Program-made: the position numbers and the translations under genes
The notes under the pieces: generated by a model
Database searches by the model: none
Told to the model about the DNA's origin: nothing
What the model saw: only the letters and a program-made list of their open reading frames with translations
In this document: piece by piece, positions 8,036-50,639 of the stretch
How the letters are laid out: each line of letters starts with the position of its first letter
How positions within the stretch are numbered: the stretch's first letter is position 1
NCBI RefSeq assembly: GCF_021172045.1
Contig: NZ_CP087164.1
Location: 5,208,001 to 5,272,000, forward strand
DNA: 64,000 nucleotides
Origin: Capillimicrobium parvum
Lineage (GTDB): Bacteria; Actinomycetota; Thermoleophilia; Solirubrobacterales; Solirubrobacteraceae
Reading direction: 5' to 3'

Positions 8036-9635
8036 AGAACCTCGCCACCACGATGCCGAACGCACTCAGCTGCAGCAGGACGAGACCGGCGAGCAGCGCG
8101 CCGGTCCCGGCCGCGCGGATGCGGCCGGGCAGCGCCGACGCCGCCCCCGCGATCGCCACGCCGTAGAGCGGCACGAGCATGAGCAGGTACCGGCCGGTGA
8201 TGACCGGATCGGCCGGGTTGACCAGCAGCGAGCGGAACGCGGCGGCGTGCAGCGACAGGATCACGAGCGCCGCGGCGACGAGCAGCACCAGCACCGCGGC
8301 GGCGTGGCCGGCGAGCAGGCGCCGGCGTCGCCAGGCGGCCACGGCGAGCAGGACGAGGCCGACCCAGATGAGGTCGCGCACCAGGTTGAGCAGGTCGCGC
8401 GGGAAGCCGACCTCGAACTGCACGAAGGTGCCGAAGAAGCGGTCGAGGTAGACCTGCTGGGCGCCCCACTCGGGCCCCACCGGAGCGGACATCCCGGGCA
8501 GCTTGGGCAGGTAGAACTGCCACAGGTACGACCAGAAGCCGGTCAGCTCGCCGAAGCGCAGGCGTGTCGCGTAGACGGCGACGACGACGAGGACGACGAC
8601 GACGGCGACCGCCCATCCGGCGGCGGCCGCGAGCCGGGAGCCGCGGGGCGGGGAAGCGCCACCGGCGGCGGCCGCGAGCCGGGAGCCGGAGGGCGGGGAA
8701 GCGCCACCGGCGGCGGCCGCGAGCCGGGAGCCGGAGGGCGAGGAAGCGCCACCGGCGGCGGCCGCGAGCCGGGAGCCGGAGGGCGGGGAAGCGCCATCGG
8801 CGGTGGCCGTCGCGCCGCGGCGCCACCGCCACCACCCCACCCCCATCGCGAACACCGCCGGCGCGACGAGCCCGAGCGCGCGCCCCTGCGTGAACCCCGC
8901 CGCCACGACCACGGCCACGAGCGCCAGCACCTGGCGCCACCCGGGGCCGCGCTGCGCGATCACCGCCATCAGATAGAGCGCCCCAGCGCACAACGGCACG
9001 AGCAGCGCGTCGGGCGTCACGCGAGTCGTGACGTCGAGCAGCACCGGCTGCAGCGCGACCGCGGCCGTCGCCACCGTCTGCAGCTCCCGCCGCCGGCCGA
9101 ACACCTCGCCCGCGAGCAGCCACGTCAGCGCCACGGTCGCCATCAGCAGCAGCACGCCGTAGACGCGCATCGCGTACAGCCGGTCGAAGAGCGTCCCCCC
9201 GGCGATCTTGTACGGCACCGCCGCCGTGAGGTAGTACAGCGGCGGGTTCAGCCAGGCGTTGTTGCCGATCGCGTCGATCTTCTGGTCATGGCCCACGGTG
9301 CGGTCGTCGACCGCGCGCCAGATGCGCTCGTCCTCCCTCGTCCACAGCGGACGCGCGGCGACGTTGCCGCGCAGCGGCTCGAGCCCCGCCCACAGCCACG
9401 CCGTCCACTGCTCGGTCGACACCGACGGCGGGTACGCGGCCTGGAGCAGGCCCGTCTCGCTGTGGCGCCACGGGATCTCCCCCGCGTCGGCGATCTTCTG
9501 CACGTAGCCGAAGTGCGCGCTCTCGTCGGCGCCCTGCAGCGCCGGGACGGCGTAGGTCCACGCCAGCCCGGCGACCAGCGTCACGAGCAGGAGAACGAGC
9601 AGGGGCCGCGGGATGCGACGTGATCGGCGCACCAC
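8028..9635 (-). CDS. DUF2142 polytopic membrane protein
   Basis: 535 residues from GTG at 9635. About 10-12 hydrophobic segments; the early motif PALQGADESAHFGYVQKIADAG after the first TM helix matches DUF2142 proteins, which resemble GT-C membrane glycosyltransferases (acidic residues in the first external loop) and usually lie in O-antigen or teichoic-acid-type loci. An oddity is four exact-length 15-residue repeats (Gly-Ala-Ser-Pro-Pro-Ser-Gly-Ser-Arg-Leu-Ala4-Gly type, about residues 279-338) inserted between TM segments, encoded by a 45-bp DNA repeat. It likely transfers a lipid-linked sugar outside the membrane; this is inference from family and context. Confidence 0.82.
   Translation of the reverse strand: MVRRSRRIPRPLLVLLLVTLVAGLAWTYAVPALQGADESAHFGYVQKIADAGEIPWRHSETGLLQAAYPPSVSTEQWTAWLWAGLEPLRGNVAARPLWTREDERIWRAVDDRTVGHDQKIDAIGNNAWLNPPLYYLTAAVPYKIAGGTLFDRLYAMRVYGVLLLMATVALTWLLAGEVFGRRRELQTVATAAVALQPVLLDVTTRVTPDALLVPLCAGALYLMAVIAQRGPGWRQVLALVAVVVAAGFTQGRALGLVAPAVFAMGVGWWRWRRGATATADGASPPSGSRLAAAAGGASSPSGSRLAAAAGGASPPSGSRLAAAAGGASPPRGSRLAAAAGWAVAVVVVLVVVAVYATRLRFGELTGFWSYLWQFYLPKLPGMSAPVGPEWGAQQVYLDRFFGTFVQFEVGFPRDLLNLVRDLIWVGLVLLAVAAWRRRRLLAGHAAAVLVLLVAAALVILSLHAAAFRSLLVNPADPVITGRYLLMLVPLYGVAIAGAASALPGRIRAAGTGALLAGLVLLQLSAFGIVVARFYA
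8621..8800. repeat. Four tandem 45-bp repeats inside the DUF2142 gene
   Basis: The unit begins CGGCGGCCGCGAGCC and recurs at 8621, 8666, 8711 and 8756 with a few substitutions, followed by a decaying fifth unit. As 45 is a multiple of three, copy number can change without frameshift. It encodes an Ala/Gly/Ser/Pro-rich 15-residue repeat in a loop between membrane segments. Confidence 0.95.
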
Positions 9636-44497: not shown

Positions 44498-46027
44498 TCA
44501 GCTCGGCGGGACGGCGGAGGGCACGCTCGGGCAGGTCGCCACCTCGCTGCGCGGGCCGCGAAGGTAGACGACCAGCGCGCCCGCGACCATCACCGCGGCG
44601 GCGACCAGCAGCGCGACGCTCAGCCCGTCGGCGAACGCGTTGCCGGCCGCGGTGGCGAGGTCCGCGCCGCGCGGCCCGATGCGCTCCGCGATCGCCATCG
44701 CCGCCGGCAGGGACTCCTGCGCGCGCGAGACCGCCTCGGCGGGCGCGCCCGAGCCCGCGAGCGCGTCGCCGAGGCTCGAGCTGTAGGCGGCGGCCAGGAC
44801 GCTGCCGAGCACCGCGATGCCGAGCGCGCCGCCGACCTCGCGGGAGGCGTCGTTGACCGCCGACGCCACGCCCTGCTTCTCGGCCGGCACGGACTCGACG
44901 ATGGCGGTCGTGGCGGGCGTCGTGGCCAGCGCCAGGCCGAAGCCGAGGACGAGCAGGCCGGCCAGCAGGTGCCAGTAGGAGGCGTCCGGGCCGAGCGTCG
45001 ACAGGATCGCCATGCCGCCGCCGGCGATCGCCAGCCCGGGCGGCCCGATCCGGCGCACGCCGAAGCGGTCGATGAGCCGCGGCACGCGCGACGACACGCC
45101 GATCAGCACGACGCCCATCGGGGCGAGCGCGATCCCCGCCTCGAGCGGCGAGTAGCCGAGCACGAACTGCACGTACTGCAGCAGGACGAAGATGAAGCCG
45201 AACATGCCGAAGAACTGCACGAGCAGCGACAGCGACCCGGCGCCGAAGCCGCGCAGCAGGAAGAGGCGCGGGTCGAGCATCGGCTGCTCGCGGCGCAGCT
45301 CGTGGGCGACGAACGCCGCGCCGAGGGCGATGCCCACGGCGAAGCCGCCGACGACGAGCCCGTCGCCCCACCCGCGCTGCGGCCCCTCGATGAACGCCCA
45401 GACGATCGCGGTCAGCGCGAGCGCCGACAGGACGGCGCCGCCGGCATCGAGCGGCGGGCGCTCGGGCGCACGGCCCTCGTGGACGAACCGGACGGTCCCC
45501 GCCGCGGCGAGCGCGGCGAGCACGACGTTCAGCACGAAGATCGACGGCCAGCTGAAGACCTCGAGCACCGCGCCCGAGACGAGCAGGCCGAGCAGCGCGC
45601 TGCCCCCGGCCACGCCGGCCCAGATGGCGACGGCGCGGTCGCGCTCGCCGGGGCCGAACGAGCTGGTGATCACCGAAAGCGTGGTCGGCATGATGAGCGC
45701 CGCGCCGAGTCCCATCGTGGCGCGGACGGCGATGAGGGCGCCCGGCTGGTCGATGAGCGTGGCCGCCGCGGAGGCGAGGCCGAAGATCGCCAGGCCGAGC
45801 AGGAGGATGCGCCGCCGGCCGAGCCGGTCGCCCAGCGCGCCCGCCGGCAGCAGCAGGCCCGCGAAGACGAGGGCGTAGGCGTCGACGATCCACTGGATCT
45901 GCGTCTGCGTGGCGCCGGTCTCGCGGGCGATGTCCGGAAGCGCCACGTTGAGCGAGGCGACGGTGCTCACGACGGTCGCCAGCGCGAGGCACATGGTGAG
46001 CAGGACACGGCGGCGTTCGGGGGACAT
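44498..46027 (-). CDS. DHA2-family multidrug exporter (MFS)
   Basis: 509 residues from ATG 46027, preceded by GGGAGGT seven to eight bases upstream (this decides against the GTG at 46036). About 14 TM helices; motif A GALGDRLGRRRILLLGLAIF after TM2 and ALLGLLVSGAVLEVFSWPSIF (motif C-like) after TM5. EmrB/QacA type, proton-driven export of hydrophobic toxic compounds. Divergent from a TetR regulator; a perfect palindrome at 46048-46063 lies 20 bp before its start, so repression by that TetR is very likely. Confidence 0.92.
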   Translation of the reverse strand: MSPERRRVLLTMCLALATVVSTVASLNVALPDIARETGATQTQIQWIVDAYALVFAGLLLPAGALGDRLGRRRILLLGLAIFGLASAAATLIDQPGALIAVRATMGLGAALIMPTTLSVITSSFGPGERDRAVAIWAGVAGGSALLGLLVSGAVLEVFSWPSIFVLNVVLAALAAAGTVRFVHEGRAPERPPLDAGGAVLSALALTAIVWAFIEGPQRGWGDGLVVGGFAVGIALGAAFVAHELRREQPMLDPRLFLLRGFGAGSLSLLVQFFGMFGFIFVLLQYVQFVLGYSPLEAGIALAPMGVVLIGVSSRVPRLIDRFGVRRIGPPGLAIAGGGMAILSTLGPDASYWHLLAGLLVLGFGLALATTPATTAIVESVPAEKQGVASAVNDASREVGGALGIAVLGSVLAAAYSSSLGDALAGSGAPAEAVSRAQESLPAAMAIAERIGPRGADLATAAGNAFADGLSVALLVAAAVMVAGALVVYLRGPRSEVATCPSVPSAVPPS

Positions 46028-46047
46028 GCTGGTCACCTCCCGGAGAA

Positions 46048-46063
46048 TTCAACGACTGTTGAA
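46048..46063. promoter_or_regulatory. TetR operator, perfect palindrome
   Basis: TTCAAC-GACT-GTTGAA, a 6-4-6 perfect inverted repeat in the 76-bp gap between the divergent exporter and TetR genes. A second site of the same form follows at 46093-46108. Confidence 0.8.
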
Positions 46064-46092
46064 GCCGGATGATGCCACGGTCGCCGCTATAT

Positions 46093-46108
46093 TTCAACAC
46101 CTGATGAA
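46093..46108. promoter_or_regulatory. Second TetR operator, overlapping the tetR start codon
   Basis: TTCAAC-ACCT-GATGAA, one base from a perfect match to the palindrome at 46048-46063; its right arm contains the ATG (46104) of the regulator. Centres are 45 bp apart. Binding here would autorepress the regulator. Confidence 0.65.
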
Positions 46109-46673
46109 GAAAGGCCGCCGCCCCGGCAAGCCCCAGACCCGCGAAGCGATCCTCGCCGCCGCCCGCCGCTCGTTCGCCGAACGCGGCTACGACGGCACGA
46201 CGATGCGCGGCGTGGCCGCCGAGGCCGGCGTCGACGTCGCGCTCGGGCACTACTACTTCGGCTCCAAGCGGGAGCTGTTCGCCGCTGCGCTCGAGCTGCC
46301 GGTCAACCCGGCCGACGCCATCGCCGGGCTGCTCGCGCAGGGCACCGACGACCTCGCCGAGCGCCTTCTGCGGCTGCTGCTGCAGGTCTGGGACGACCCG
46401 CAGACCGGCGGCCCGCTGCGCGCCATGCTGCGCTCGGTCGACAGCCAGCAGGAGCTGCTGCGCGGGTTCGTCGAGCGCGAGATCGTGGCGCGGCTGGCGA
46501 CCGCGATCGACGGCCCCGGCGCGGAGCTGCGCGCCACCGCGGCGGCGACGCAGATCATCGGGCTCGTCCTCGCGCGCTACGTCGTCGAGGTGCAGCCGAT
46601 CGCCTCCGCCGGCCACGAGGAGATCGTCGCCCTCATCGCGCCGAGCCTGCAGCGCTACTTCGACCCCGCCTGA
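46104..46673 (+). CDS. TetR/AcrR-family repressor of the divergent exporter
   Basis: 189 residues from ATG 46104. N-terminal HTH: REAILAAARRSFAERGYDGTTMRGVAAEAGVDVALGHYYFGSKRELFAAAL, the typical TetR DNA-binding domain. The helical C-terminal ligand domain is in the style of AcrR-like regulators with a PsrA/TetR_C-type end. Binding to the two palindromes just upstream would control both the exporter and itself. Followed by a strong terminator hairpin (46707-46741). Confidence 0.92.
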   Translation: MKKGRRPGKPQTREAILAAARRSFAERGYDGTTMRGVAAEAGVDVALGHYYFGSKRELFAAALELPVNPADAIAGLLAQGTDDLAERLLRLLLQVWDDPQTGGPLRAMLRSVDSQQELLRGFVEREIVARLATAIDGPGAELRATAAATQIIGLVLARYVVEVQPIASAGHEEIVALIAPSLQRYFDPA

Positions 46674-46803: not shown

Positions 46804-47601
46804 ATGCGCCTCGCCTGTCCCGCCTGTCGGACGCCGCTGCCCGCCCTCGAGGGGGACGCGGTCGCGTGCCCCGGCTGCCGGGCCCCGTACCGGCGGCTGC
46901 CGTTCGCCTGGGACCTCACCCCGCCGCGCAAGACGTGGACGGACGGCGAGTGGGAGGTCTGGGAGCGCCTGCAGGACAACGGCGAGGTCAGCTACACCGC
47001 CGACCCCGAGCACAACCTCGGCGTCGGCGACCGCGACGACGTCCGGCGCTTCTCCGCCTTCGCGCAGCTGCACGGCGACGTGCTCGACGTCGGCTGCGGC
47101 CCCCAGCCCTGGCCGGCGTACTTCGACCGCCACGCCGAGGAAACGCGCTTCGTCGGCGTCGACCCGCTCGTCGGCGAGCGCGAGGCCCGCTACGAGCGCT
47201 ACCGCGCCCTCGCCGAGCACCTGCCGTTCGCGGACGCCGGCTTCGACGTCGTCCTGTTCGCGGGCACGCTCGACCACTTCGTCGATCCGGACGTCGCGCT
47301 CGCCGAGGCCGTGCGCATGCTGCGGCCCGGCGGCACGATCGCCGTCTACCTCGGCCACAAGCGGGCGGGGGCGCCGAAGCCGGCCGTCTCGCACGACTGG
47401 TACGAGGCGCTCGAGGTGCCCGACGGCGCGGAGGACCGCTTCCACATGGAGCGCTTCGGGCCCGGCGAGGCCGTCGCCCTCTTCGCGCGCGCGGGCCTCG
47501 AGGTCTCAGGCCAGGAGGACCACCGCGTCGACGAGTGGCACTCCTACCACTTCTATCGCCTCAGGCCGCCAGCCGCGTCGGCGACGTCCGCGCCGCGCTG
47601 A
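46804..47601 (+). CDS. Methyltransferase with N-terminal zinc ribbon
   Basis: 265 residues. N-terminal Cys-x2-Cys ... Cys-x2-Cys (CPACRTPLPALEGDAVACPGCR, cysteines at 5, 8, 22, 25) makes a Trm112/RlmA-like zinc ribbon. SAM-binding motif VLDVGCGPQPWPAYF (about 95-109) and the region LPFADAGFDVVLFAGTLDHFVDPDVALAEAVRMLRPGG follow. Class I methyltransferase; rRNA or small-molecule substrates are possible, and sugar methylation is frequent for zinc-ribbon-preceded members. Its 3' end overlaps the convergent sigma-amidotransferase gene by 41 bp. Confidence 0.87.
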   Translation: MRLACPACRTPLPALEGDAVACPGCRAPYRRLPFAWDLTPPRKTWTDGEWEVWERLQDNGEVSYTADPEHNLGVGDRDDVRRFSAFAQLHGDVLDVGCGPQPWPAYFDRHAEETRFVGVDPLVGEREARYERYRALAEHLPFADAGFDVVLFAGTLDHFVDPDVALAEAVRMLRPGGTIAVYLGHKRAGAPKPAVSHDWYEALEVPDGAEDRFHMERFGPGEAVALFARAGLEVSGQEDHRVDEWHSYHFYRLRPPAASATSAPR

Positions 47602-48703
47602 CGAGCGCGGCGGCGACCCGTCCGCCCGCCTCGGCGACGTCCGTGTGCTCCGGGTGCCACTGCAGCCCGAGCACGAACCGCTTCGACGGCACCTCGACCA
47701 TCTCGACGATCCCGTCGCCGGACAGCGACGTCACGCGCACCCCACGGCCCAGCCGGCGCACGCCCTGGTGGTGCTCGCTGACGACCTCGGTCCGGCGCCC
47801 GAGGATCGTGCGCGACAGGCTGTTCTCGCCCGTGTCGATCGGGTGCGCGCCGCTGACGTGGTCGGCGCCGCCGGCACCCTCGGACGCGATGTCCTGCCAC
47901 AGCGATCCGCCGAGCGCGATGTTCAGCATCTGGTGGCCGCGGCAGACGCCGACGATCGGCACGTCGGCCGCCAGGGCCGCACGCACCGCGCGCAGATCGC
48001 GCTGGTCGGCGGCGAGGTCCTCGTCGCCGGCGCCGAAGCGCAGCTCCTCGCCGTAGAGCGCCGGGTGGATGTCGCGGAAGCTCGCGCCGAGCAGCAGCGC
48101 GTCGGCGCCGGCGAGCTCGCGGTCGAGGCTGTCGTGGTCGATGCTGCGCATGCGGCCGCCGGCGGCCTCGATCCAGGCGCGGAACGCCTCGTCGTCATGC
48201 TTGCCGCGGAGGAAGAGCACGAGCGGCCCGTCGGCGCGCCGCCCGCGCAGGGCCTCGGCGAACGCGCCCCGAGCGCGCTCGACGCGCTTGCGCGCCGCCT
48301 CCTCGGTGACGTCGAGCAGCGCACCGAGCTCGCGGTGGCTGAGCCCGGCCTCGAAGCGCAGAAGGAGCACCATCCGCTCGTGCGGCGTGAGCGAGGCCAT
48401 CGCCTCCCGCGCGTGCAGGCGCTCGACCGGCTCGGGATGCGACCCGCCCCAGCGCTCCTCGTCGAGGACGGCGGGGTGGCGAAGCCGGCGGCGGCGCAGC
48501 TCGTCGAGCGCCAGGTTCGACGCCGTGCGGTGCAGCCAGCCGCGGTGCTGCTCAGGCGTCGCGTCGGCCGGCGCCTTGCGCCACGCACGGACGAAGGTCT
48601 CCTGGCAAAGATCGGCGGCGGTCTCGCGGTCGCCCACGATGCGCTGCAGGCGGGCCATCAGCGGCCCGCGCTGCTCGTGGAAGATGACTTCGATCTGGGT
48701 CAT
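47561..48703 (-). CDS. Fusion: ECF-type sigma factor with class I glutamine amidotransferase (peptidase C26-like) domain
   Basis: 380 residues from ATG 48703 (GTG at 48751 is possible but crosses an inverted repeat). Residues about 8-75 are sigma region 2 (FHEQRGPLMARLQRIV, DLCQETFVRAWRKA, NLALDELRRRRLR); about 100-155 are region 4 (LTPHERMVLLLRFEAGLSHRELGALLDVTEEAARKRV). With no stop and almost no linker, an amidotransferase-like hydrolase domain follows (about 160-365): DIHPALYGEE, nucleophile elbow GVCRGHQ (Cys254), HHQ (about 311-313) and WHPE (His350, Glu352), as in PuuD/gamma-glutamyl-GABA hydrolases. All three catalytic residues are present. The combination is unfamiliar to me. Downstream of and on the same strand as an FMN reductase and YceI. 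Confidence 0.88.
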   Translation of the reverse strand: MTQIEVIFHEQRGPLMARLQRIVGDRETAADLCQETFVRAWRKAPADATPEQHRGWLHRTASNLALDELRRRRLRHPAVLDEERWGGSHPEPVERLHAREAMASLTPHERMVLLLRFEAGLSHRELGALLDVTEEAARKRVERARGAFAEALRGRRADGPLVLFLRGKHDDEAFRAWIEAAGGRMRSIDHDSLDRELAGADALLLGASFRDIHPALYGEELRFGAGDEDLAADQRDLRAVRAALAADVPIVGVCRGHQMLNIALGGSLWQDIASEGAGGADHVSGAHPIDTGENSLSRTILGRRTEVVSEHHQGVRRLGRGVRVTSLSGDGIVEMVEVPSKRFVLGLQWHPEHTDVAEAGGRVAAALVSAARTSPTRLAA

Positions 48704-48715
48704 GTGGGCCACATA

Positions 48716-48747
48716 CCGGTTCAGACGCGCGAGGGCGCCCGAACCGG
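48716..48747. promoter_or_regulatory. Inverted repeat before the sigma-fusion gene
   Basis: CCGGTTC (48716-48722) and GAACCGG (48741-48747) are perfect 7-bp arms separated by 18 bases, in the 49-bp gap between the FMN reductase stop and the sigma-fusion ATG. Could be a regulator site, or a pair of GAAC-type ECF promoter elements; too weak as a terminator with this loop. Confidence 0.4.
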
Positions 48748-48752
48748 ACACA

Positions 48753-49310
48753 TCATGCCGCGATCCGCTCGCGTCGTTCGGCGACCGCGGCCGTGAGCTC
48801 CTCGATCGTCGCGGCCAGGCCGCGCTCGGTCTCCTCGTCGCTCAGCCGGCCGTCGGGATGGAACTGGTCGTCCGCCGACGGCACGGGCAGCTCCCGGTCG
48901 AGCACGCGCGCGCCGATCGCCTGGAGCACCTTGCGCGCTTCCGCCTGCGCCCACACGGCACCGAACATGCCGGTGCTCGCGCCCACCACCGCGGCGGGCT
49001 TGTTGCGCAGCGGGCTGCTGATGAGCGGGCGCGACACCCAGTCGAGCGCGTTCTTCAGCTGACCCGGGATGGAGTGGTTGTACTCCGGGGTCGAGACGAG
49101 CACGGCGTCGGCCTCCGCGATCGCCTGCTTGAGGCGCTGCACGGACGCGGGCTGCGCGTGGTGCTCGTCGTCGTCGTAGGGCGGGATGTCCCGCAGGCCC
49201 TCGTAGAGCACGAGCTCCACCTCGGGCGGCAGCAGCTGCGCTGCCGCCCGCAGGAGGGCCGTGTTGTGCGAGTCGCGCCGCAGGGATCCCGAGATGGCCA
49301 GGATCCGCAT
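48753..49310 (-). CDS. NADPH-dependent FMN reductase (flavodoxin-like)
   Basis: 185 residues. FMN-binding loop at the start (ILAISGSLRRDSHNTALLRAA), then LVSTPEYNHSIPGQLKNALDWVSR, the diagnostic region of the ChrR/azoreductase-like NADPH-FMN reductases. Reduces flavin, quinones or metal ions using NADPH. 4 bp after the YceI gene, so co-transcribed with it and under the same TetR palindromes; the set looks like a stress-response operon. Confidence 0.92.
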   Translation of the reverse strand: MRILAISGSLRRDSHNTALLRAAAQLLPPEVELVLYEGLRDIPPYDDDEHHAQPASVQRLKQAIAEADAVLVSTPEYNHSIPGQLKNALDWVSRPLISSPLRNKPAAVVGASTGMFGAVWAQAEARKVLQAIGARVLDRELPVPSADDQFHPDGRLSDEETERGLAATIEELTAAVAERRERIAA

Positions 49311-49314
49311 CGCC

Positions 49315-49842
49315 CTACGCCTTGTGGAACTCGAGCTCGACGGCGAGCGTGACGTCGTTGCCGAGCGCGTTGCCGCCCTTGGGCAGCGGAGCGTTCCAGC
49401 TGACGCCGTAGGCCGTGCGGTCGATCGTGGCCTCGAGGCTCAGGCCGAGGCGGACGTTGCCCATGAAGTCCTCGGTCGGGCCGCTGATGGTGCCGGTGGC
49501 GGTCACCGGCTGCGAGACGCCCTTGATCGTCAGCTCACCGGTGAGCGTGACGCGGTCGCCGTCGATCTCGATGCGATCGCTCGAGAACGCGATCTCCGGA
49601 TGCTGCTCGGCGTCGAAGAAGTCCGGGCCCTGGAGGTGGGCTGCGAGGTTCTCGTCCTTGACCGCGATCGACGCGACCTTGACGGCGCCGGTGAGCCGGC
49701 CGCCCTCGAGCTGTGCTTGGACGTCGGTGAGCTCGCCGCGGAACGGGGCGACGAGGTACTTCACGGAGAACGTCGCCGCGGAGTGCACGGGGGCGAAGTT
49801 CCACGTGCCGGCAAGACGCTCCGGGGTGACATCGGTGGCCAT
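49315..49842 (-). CDS. YceI-family protein
   Basis: 175 residues from ATG 49842, with AGAGGAGA just upstream. No signal peptide. YceI lipocalin-like signatures: GTWNFAPVHSAATFSVKYLVAPFRGELTDV, DFFDAEQHPEIAFSSD, GELTIKGVSQPVT. Members bind polyisoprenoid-type lipids and are stress-induced. First gene of the operon 49842-47561; divergent from a TetR gene across 86 bp that contain two matching palindromes, so it is the direct target of that repressor. Confidence 0.93.
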   Translation of the reverse strand: MATDVTPERLAGTWNFAPVHSAATFSVKYLVAPFRGELTDVQAQLEGGRLTGAVKVASIAVKDENLAAHLQGPDFFDAEQHPEIAFSSDRIEIDGDRVTLTGELTIKGVSQPVTATGTISGPTEDFMGNVRLGLSLEATIDRTAYGVSWNAPLPKGGNALGNDVTLAVELEFHKA

Positions 49843-49868
49843 CTGATTCTCCTCTGGATGTGGGTAGT

Positions 49869-49884
49869 CCGGACCGCAGTCCGC
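49869..49884. promoter_or_regulatory. TetR operator 1 (yceI side)
   Basis: CCGGACCGCAGTCCGC, with inverted arms CGGAC and GTCCG. Matches the second site at 49908-49923 in 14 of 16 positions; centres 39 bp apart. Confidence 0.7.
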
Positions 49885-49907
49885 TTGTTGCGAGTACGAT
49901 ACCATAA

Positions 49908-49928: not shown

Positions 49929-50543
49929 ATGATCATGACCCCCGCCACCATGGAACTCCCCGTCATCGGAACCGAGCCGCGCGAGCGCGCCGACGCCGCC
50001 CGCAACCGCCGCCGCATCCTGGCCGCGGCGCAGCGCCTGTTCGCCGAGAAGGGGGTGCAGTGCACGTCGATGGACGCGATCGCCGCGGAGGCCGGCGTGG
50101 GCAAGGGGACGCTGTTCCGGCGCTTCGGCGACCGCGCGACCCTCGCGCTCGCCGTGCTCGACGAGAGCGAGCGCGAGCTGCAGGAGGCGCTGCTGCACGG
50201 CCCGCCGCCCGTCGGTCCGGGCGCGCCACCCTGCATGCGGCTCGTCGGGTTCGGCGCCGCCATGCTCGACCGCCTCGAGGCGCACCTCGACCTGCTGCTC
50301 GACGCCGAGCTGCACAGCGCCGGCGGCTTCCTGCGCTCGGAGCCCTACATGGTCCACTGGCTGCACGTCCGGATGCTCGTCGAGCAGGCGCGGCCGAACT
50401 GCGACGTCGACTACACCACCGACGTGCTGCTCGGCGCCCTGTCCGCCCAGGTCTTCGCCCACCAGCGCCGCGTGCGCCACATGCCGCTCGAGCGGCTGAA
50501 GGACGGCTACGCGGACCTGGTCGGCAAGATGATGACGGCCTGA
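49929..50543 (+). CDS. TetR-family regulator of the yceI operon
   Basis: 204 residues from ATG 49929 (ATG at 49935 is as likely). [57 protein letters not shown]-terminal domain helical, with a single cysteine pair far apart. Two nearly identical palindromes occupy the divergent region. The 3' end is duplicated directly downstream (period 42 bp). Confidence 0.92.
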
Positions 50544-50600
50544 GTCGGCGAGGCGGTTCTGGTCGGCAAGATGATGACGGCCTGAATCGGCGGGGCGGTT
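50517..50600. repeat. Tandem duplication of the tetR 3' end, two 42-bp units
   Basis: Unit 1 (50517-50558) spans the last codons and the stop of tetR; unit 2 (50559-50600) repeats it with 40 of 42 bases identical, including the TGA. No inserted element. Same style of 3'-end doubling as at 33343-33418. Confidence 0.93.
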
Positions 50601-50639
50601 CGGCCCGCTGTGGCCGCGATTCTGTCGCGCTGACGGCGC

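Follow-up and report, generated by a model that had tools for sequence, protein, structure and literature searches.

The window analysed here is a stretch of 64,000 nucleotides of Capillimicrobium parvum contig NZ_CP087164.1 (positions 5,208,001 to 5,272,000). The gene in question is a single open reading frame on its minus strand (ATG at 48703-48701, stop at 47563-47561) that encodes an extracytoplasmic function (ECF) sigma factor fused to a Peptidase_C26 amidotransferase domain (Table 1). The initial annotation of the window had given the coordinates and the length of 380 codons correctly, without naming the strand, and had described complete sigma regions 2 and 4 followed, with almost no linker, by a C26 hydrolase domain; Pfam, an AlphaFold2 model and the 10-12 residue junction bear out this description. 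All Pfam matches of the protein (sigma regions 2 and 4, C26 and GATase) exceeded the curated cut-offs. Peptidase_C26 (PF07722) was matched over residues 189-352 with an E value of 3.2e-39 (135.4 bits, cut-off 20.5), and the GATase profile was also matched (E 5.1e-13). The sigma half has the layout of an ECF (group IV) factor, with regions 2 and 4 only and no sigma3 in either the Pfam matches or the model helices, and the protein scored 65.1 bits with the sigma70-ECF model TIGR02937 (cut-off 42.9). The PuuD equivalog model NF008471 was not reached (69.2 bits, cut-off 266).

Table 1. Coordinates of the fusion gene, its parts, its predicted promoter and the upstream genes, in positions of the window.
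Feature	Coordinates	Strand	Remarks
ECF sigma/Peptidase_C26 fusion, coding sequence	47561..48703	-	380 residues, ATG start
Sigma70 region 2, residues 12-73	48485..48670	-	Pfam PF04542, E 4.6e-13
Sigma2-sigma4 linker (variable), residues 76-97	48413..48478	-	AlphaFold2 model and orthologue alignment
Sigma70 region 4, residues 101-145	48269..48403	-	Pfam PF04545, E 1.6e-10
Sigma4-to-C26 junction, residues 151-160	48224..48253	-	10-12 residues in every full-length orthologue
PuuD/SpuA-like class I amidotransferase (Peptidase_C26) domain, residues 160-373	47585..48226	-	Pfam and structure matches
Nucleophile Cys254 codon (GVCRGHQ)	47942..47944	-	20/20 orthologues
His311-His312-Gln313 motif	47765..47773	-	20/20, invariant among fusions
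His350-Pro-Glu352 codons (WHPE)	47648..47656	-	His 19/20, Glu 19/20 orthologues
Predicted -35 element of the fusion's promoter, TGTCCGGTT	48742..48750	-	starts 2 nucleotides (nt) past the stop codon of the flavin mononucleotide (FMN) reductase gene
Predicted -10 element, CGTCT	48723..48727	-	14 nt past the 9-base -35 block, 19 nt before the ATG
NADPH-dependent FMN reductase gene (PF03358)	48753..49310	-	upstream of the fusion, probable co-directional neighbour
YceI-like protein gene (PF04264)	49315..49905	-	4 nt upstream of the FMN reductase gene

Structure prediction, which the initial annotation had proposed as a check on the architecture, modelled the sigma helices (residues 3-154) and then a complete alpha/beta domain (residues 160-373). 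The mean predicted local distance difference test score was 89.5 and the predicted template modelling score 0.74, with low confidence confined to the sigma2-sigma4 linker (residues 75-88) and the last residues of the protein. The nearest structures to the C26 domain were PuuD (Z 29.5, root-mean-square deviation (rmsd) 2.0 over 220 residues), SpuA, including its glutamyl-thioester entries, and Lin1909, and Foldseek returned them as well; other class I amidotransferases scored well below these (Z about 22-23). Matches to the C26 domain filled the comparison, and sigma factor entries were absent from the matches listed. Among full-length orthologues, mean pairwise identity was 0.54 for sigma2, 0.57 for sigma4 and 0.51 for C26, and the connecting parts were less alike, the sigma linker at 0.29 and the junction at 0.33.

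The catalytic residues proposed from the sequence, Cys254 in GVCRGHQ and His350/Glu352 in WHPE, lie exactly where the initial annotation had placed them. Cys, His and Glu are jointly kept in 19 of the 20 aligned fusions, and this triad and the HHQ motif are the same as in stand-alone C26 enzymes, so that, judged from the residues, the domain is probably catalytic. Two relatives depart from this pattern: WHPE is replaced by WKPQ in genome G008 (locus L019) and by WQPQ in genome G007 (locus L228, a gene with an N gap), and in both the catalytic His and Glu are gone, whereas the Cys and the predicted promoter described below remain.

Fused homologues were found at about 40-56% identity in many genera, with one partial copy at 73%; full-length matches align end to end as a single frame, and a few copies are damaged or broken at contig ends. 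In the family-level sample, fusion matches were present in 23 of 146 genomes, representing 9 genera, and the order-level sample contained full-length or partial fusions in 28 of 232 genomes from three families. No additional fusion outside the order was found in the class sample of 399 genomes, and in the phylum sample (E<=1e-40) the matches outside the order were to the C26 half (the C-terminal half) only. A search of 84,980 species returned no fusion outside the order among its best 80 matches; the named contigs among the matches listed belonged to Conexibacter, Solirubrobacteraceae, Solirubrobacterales and Thermoleophilaceae. On plasmids, only matches of C26 length were obtained, none spanning 80% of the query. 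Two partial matches considered as fusions outside the order (L086 and L087) were rejected, one being an ordinary stand-alone C26 protein and the other having an unrelated N-terminus.

The initial annotation had raised two objections to its own proposal. A sequencing error at the junction can be set aside, because fused full-length homologues occur in many genera. Neither are the homologues always separate genes, since the sigma half was found only in fusions, and never without C26, in the 146 family genomes at E<=1e-22. A FastTree phylogeny of C26 domains grouped all 20 fused ones in one clade, apart from 101 stand-alone domains, with support of 1.0 and a stem of 1.02 substitutions per site. 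Because the fused domains make a single clade on a long stem, the tree points to one old fusion event, retained since and now patchily present.

The DNA upstream of the orthologues contains a sole conserved block, TGTCCG[G/C]T[T/C]-N14-CGTC[T], set in unconserved flanking DNA. This promoter-like motif was present in all 21 upstream regions analysed (two of them divergent), with invariant GTC and CGT cores, and it ended 7-19 nt before the start codon; it was also seen in two further orthologues (G007 and G216). In a leave-one-out weight-matrix test, 18 of the sites beat 500 of 500 shuffles and one more beat all but one. The whole predicted site in the window extends from 48750 to 48723. Since the motif ends so close to the start codon, transcripts of the fusion may have little or no leader. 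CGTC is the usual -10 element of ECF promoters, and positive autoregulation from an ECF-type promoter is typical, though not universal, among ECF factors. This shared predicted self-promoter, which did not figure in the initial annotation, is the strongest functional clue that we have to the fusion.

We then asked how far the predicted regulon extends. The pattern TGTCCGSTY-N14-CGTC was matched exactly only once in this genome, at the fusion's own site, and matches with one mismatch numbered 48 in all, close to the 37 of a reversed-pattern control. Exact extra sites exist in the family genomes, most of them inside coding sequence or without a nearby start. The convincing ones come from a pair of species that belong to one other genus (G005 and G011), where the motif precedes an orthologous cupin gene, 14 and 10 nt upstream of the ATG, and also heads an orthologous amidotransferase-like gene related to the C-terminal part of cytidine triphosphate (CTP) synthase (PRK06186, below cut-off). 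This suggests that a second protein of amidotransferase fold may be under the same predicted sigma factor in these two genomes. At loci L230 and L266 of G011 and L267 of G005, the CTP-synthase C-terminal-like gene, of 229 residues, lies directly behind the motif. A cupin gene also lies 43 nt downstream of the fusion's matched end in G007; cupin orthologues outside G005 and G011, including the nearest cupin of this genome, had no clear motif. Three candidate targets were each confined to a single species. Two of them, named by reading their sequences, are an OsmC-like gene in a relative presumed to be C. woesei and a gene for an alpha/beta hydrolase in G029; the third is a small gene that immediately follows the fusion in G005. 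Taken together, the matches suggest a tiny regulon in which the fusion is joined by a few lineage-specific genes.

A second copy of the promoter motif was observed just upstream of the fusion in G085 and G086 (loci L236 and L237), where it heads a decayed duplicate of the 5' end of the fusion. The first codons of this duplicate are similar to those of the fusion and the frame is then lost, a pattern best read as a tandem duplication of which one copy died.

The gene neighbourhood of the fusion varies. An FMN reductase gene is also found upstream of the fusion in one congener and is not conserved further. A canonical ECF factor has its cognate anti-sigma gene beside it; among the flanking genes scanned around the fusions, no anti-sigma domain was detected, and no neighbour recurred among the relatives scanned. 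A conserved operon or anti-sigma partner was thus rejected, the neighbours being as diverse as an MFS transporter, MoaC, a chaperonin, a LysR-like protein and siroheme synthase, among others. MoaC/MoCF genes follow the fusion in one genus (G025-G031; genus g9, which we take to be Conexibacter) and not elsewhere. At loci L150, L151, L152, L153, L159 and L160 of this genus, MoaC lies downstream in the same direction, a linkage absent elsewhere in the order, and at several of its loci a gene for a molybdopterin-binding domain and one for an ABC transporter ATPase are also found downstream.

Other features of the window were noted in passing. A divergent pair at 44498-46673 combines a minus-strand gene for an MFS-type transporter, presumably EmrB/QacA-like, with a plus-strand gene for a TetR-family regulator, which we take to be a typical repressor/efflux arrangement. 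At 8617-8817, in a GC-rich stretch, a 45-base unit is repeated in tandem (4.4 copies, 94% matches). Two near-identical 42-base units at 50517-50601 lie around the end of a TetR-family-like gene (open reading frame 49929-50543) and are apparently a small recent duplication at its stop codon.

The fusion was compared with ECF factors known to carry C-terminal extensions. ECF41 factors have no anti-sigma factor, bear a C-terminal regulatory extension and serve essentially one target transcript from a TGTCACA-n16-CGTC promoter (PMC3426412), and the domain fused to the sigma factor both makes its activity possible and limits it (PMC3426412; reviewed in PMC8999054). Given the fusion's own obligate, closely joined C-terminal domain and its self-directed promoter motif, ECF41 is the closest functional precedent. 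The fusion shares with ECF41 members (SigJ/SigI of M. tuberculosis, Ecf41Bli) a sigma2-sigma4 core without an anti-sigma gene, an enzyme-like globular extension, a very small regulon, here a predicted one, and a promoter in which TGTC is followed by CGTC as the -10 element; orthologue L017 even has TGTCACA, and the spacing of the fusion's motif is also 16 if counted from a TGTCNNN heptamer. However, the extension of ECF41 is SnoaL-like, whereas that of the fusion is a Peptidase_C26/GATase domain with a catalytic triad. The WLPEP linker motif of ECF41 (PMC3426412) is absent from the aligned fusion orthologues, the -35 element is TGTCCGSTY in all but one of them, and the predicted target is the fusion itself instead of a carboxymuconolactone decarboxylase, oxidoreductase or epimerase gene.

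Other groups resemble the fusion less closely. In ECF42, a C-terminal extension is likewise thought to control a sigma factor that has no anti-sigma factor (PMC8999054), but it consists of TPR protein-interaction repeats and is accompanied by a conserved YCII-related neighbour, whereas the fusion has an enzyme fold and no such neighbour. CorE-type factors (ECF238) provide an example of a C-terminal domain that directly senses a small ligand (PMC8999054), through a Cys-rich metal-binding tail that the fusion lacks. The C26 domain itself has the fold of the gamma-glutamyl(-GABA/polyamine) hydrolases PuuD and SpuA, with which it superposes over 209-220 residues (Z 28-30, rmsd 1.9-2.2) at 28-32% identity, and it shares their triad and HxQ motif; PuuD and SpuA are stand-alone enzymes, whereas the domain of the fusion is a minimal version placed behind a sigma factor, on a long branch of its own. 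Fifteen extension-bearing groups are listed as unstudied in the ECF review, and a fusion to C26 is missing from the extension types as far as they are named there (PMC8999054). The initial annotation knew of no described counterpart, and our literature search, whose reach did not extend to the ECF classification of Casas-Pastor et al. (2021), found none; that classification may already list the architecture in a table without naming it.

We consider it somewhat better than an even chance that the fusion is an ECF sigma factor that regulates its own gene, has no anti-sigma partner and is set in cis by its PuuD/SpuA-like domain. The C26 domain would bind a gamma-glutamyl amide or glutamine-like compound, probably hydrolysing it through a Cys254 thioester. 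Occupancy of the site would alter the engagement of RNA polymerase by sigma2 and sigma4 through the short junction of near-fixed length, and the active form would start transcription at TGTCCGSTY-N14-CGTCT promoters, chiefly the fusion's own and possibly those of a few lineage-specific targets (the cupin and the CTP-synthase-like amidotransferase). Sensor, sigma factor and hydrolase would be produced jointly, in a loop that limits or amplifies itself. Computed evidence supports the fusion with its conservation and single origin, the conserved triad, and the promoter-like motif, which is conserved and nearly unique in this genome; recognition of the motif by this sigma, enzyme activity, the ligand and the direction of control are parts of the scheme that we infer. 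Control through occupancy or turnover of the active site seems the most likely form, because an enzyme can be recognised in the fused domain; that the domain is an active gamma-glutamyl/glutamine hydrolase whose reaction state switches the attached sigma, uniting sensor, factor, enzyme and regulon in one polypeptide, is a narrower proposal that we advance tentatively. Several observations weigh against the scheme as a whole. The motif is weak in the leave-one-out test at L155 and fails it at L017, its recognition by the fusion's own sigma is predicted from sequence, and the AlphaFold2 model offered no inspectable interface between sigma and C26. The metabolic context around the fusions points to no particular substrate. 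A tie to glutamine, gamma-glutamyl or polyamine metabolism, suggested in the initial annotation, was likewise not established: the gene neighbourhoods carry no such signal, and the predicted co-targets are the cupin and the CTP-synthase-like amidotransferase, in two relatives only. Catalysis, though usually kept, also appears not to be essential everywhere, because G008 and G007 carry the regulator without His and Glu.

These two relatives bear on the alternatives as well. The sigma may drive only its own expression, with C26 carried along as a useful enzyme without interdomain allostery, and the signal entering at the level of stability or by way of another promoter, for example one that drives the YceI/FMN reductase operon upstream. 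The main predicted product of the unique exact promoter match in this genome is indeed the enzyme, its triad is retained in nearly all orthologues, and the upstream co-directional genes could give basal transcription; however, G008 and G007 retain sigma and promoter without the catalytic His and Glu, and we regard this explanation as unlikely. The same two proteins, which keep Cys and promoter, would fit a pseudo-enzyme that senses a glutamine-like or gamma-glutamyl ligand without turnover, comparable to the role proposed for the SnoaL-like domain in ECF41/SigJ, and positions near the active site do differ from most stand-alone C26 enzymes. Yet Cys, His and Glu occur together in nearly all aligned fusions, and by alignment the differences at Ser208 and Asp236 have counterparts in active PuuD/SpuA, which leaves a pure sensor slightly less probable again. 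The possibility that a frame error has joined two genes, or that the gene is misannotated, is refuted by full-length fused homologues in many independent assemblies, which include several single-contig chromosomes, and its probability is close to nil.

The fusion would be a new form of ECF sigma factor with a C-terminal regulatory extension. Its extension belongs to a well-understood enzyme family with known covalent chemistry, so that the ligand can be guessed and the active site disabled by one mutation; with a promoter already predicted, the general question of how a sigma factor is controlled by a fused domain becomes directly testable. The narrow, self-targeting promoter could serve as an orthogonal gene switch. 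If control in cis is true, the fusion would couple the initiation of transcription directly to a metabolic reaction.
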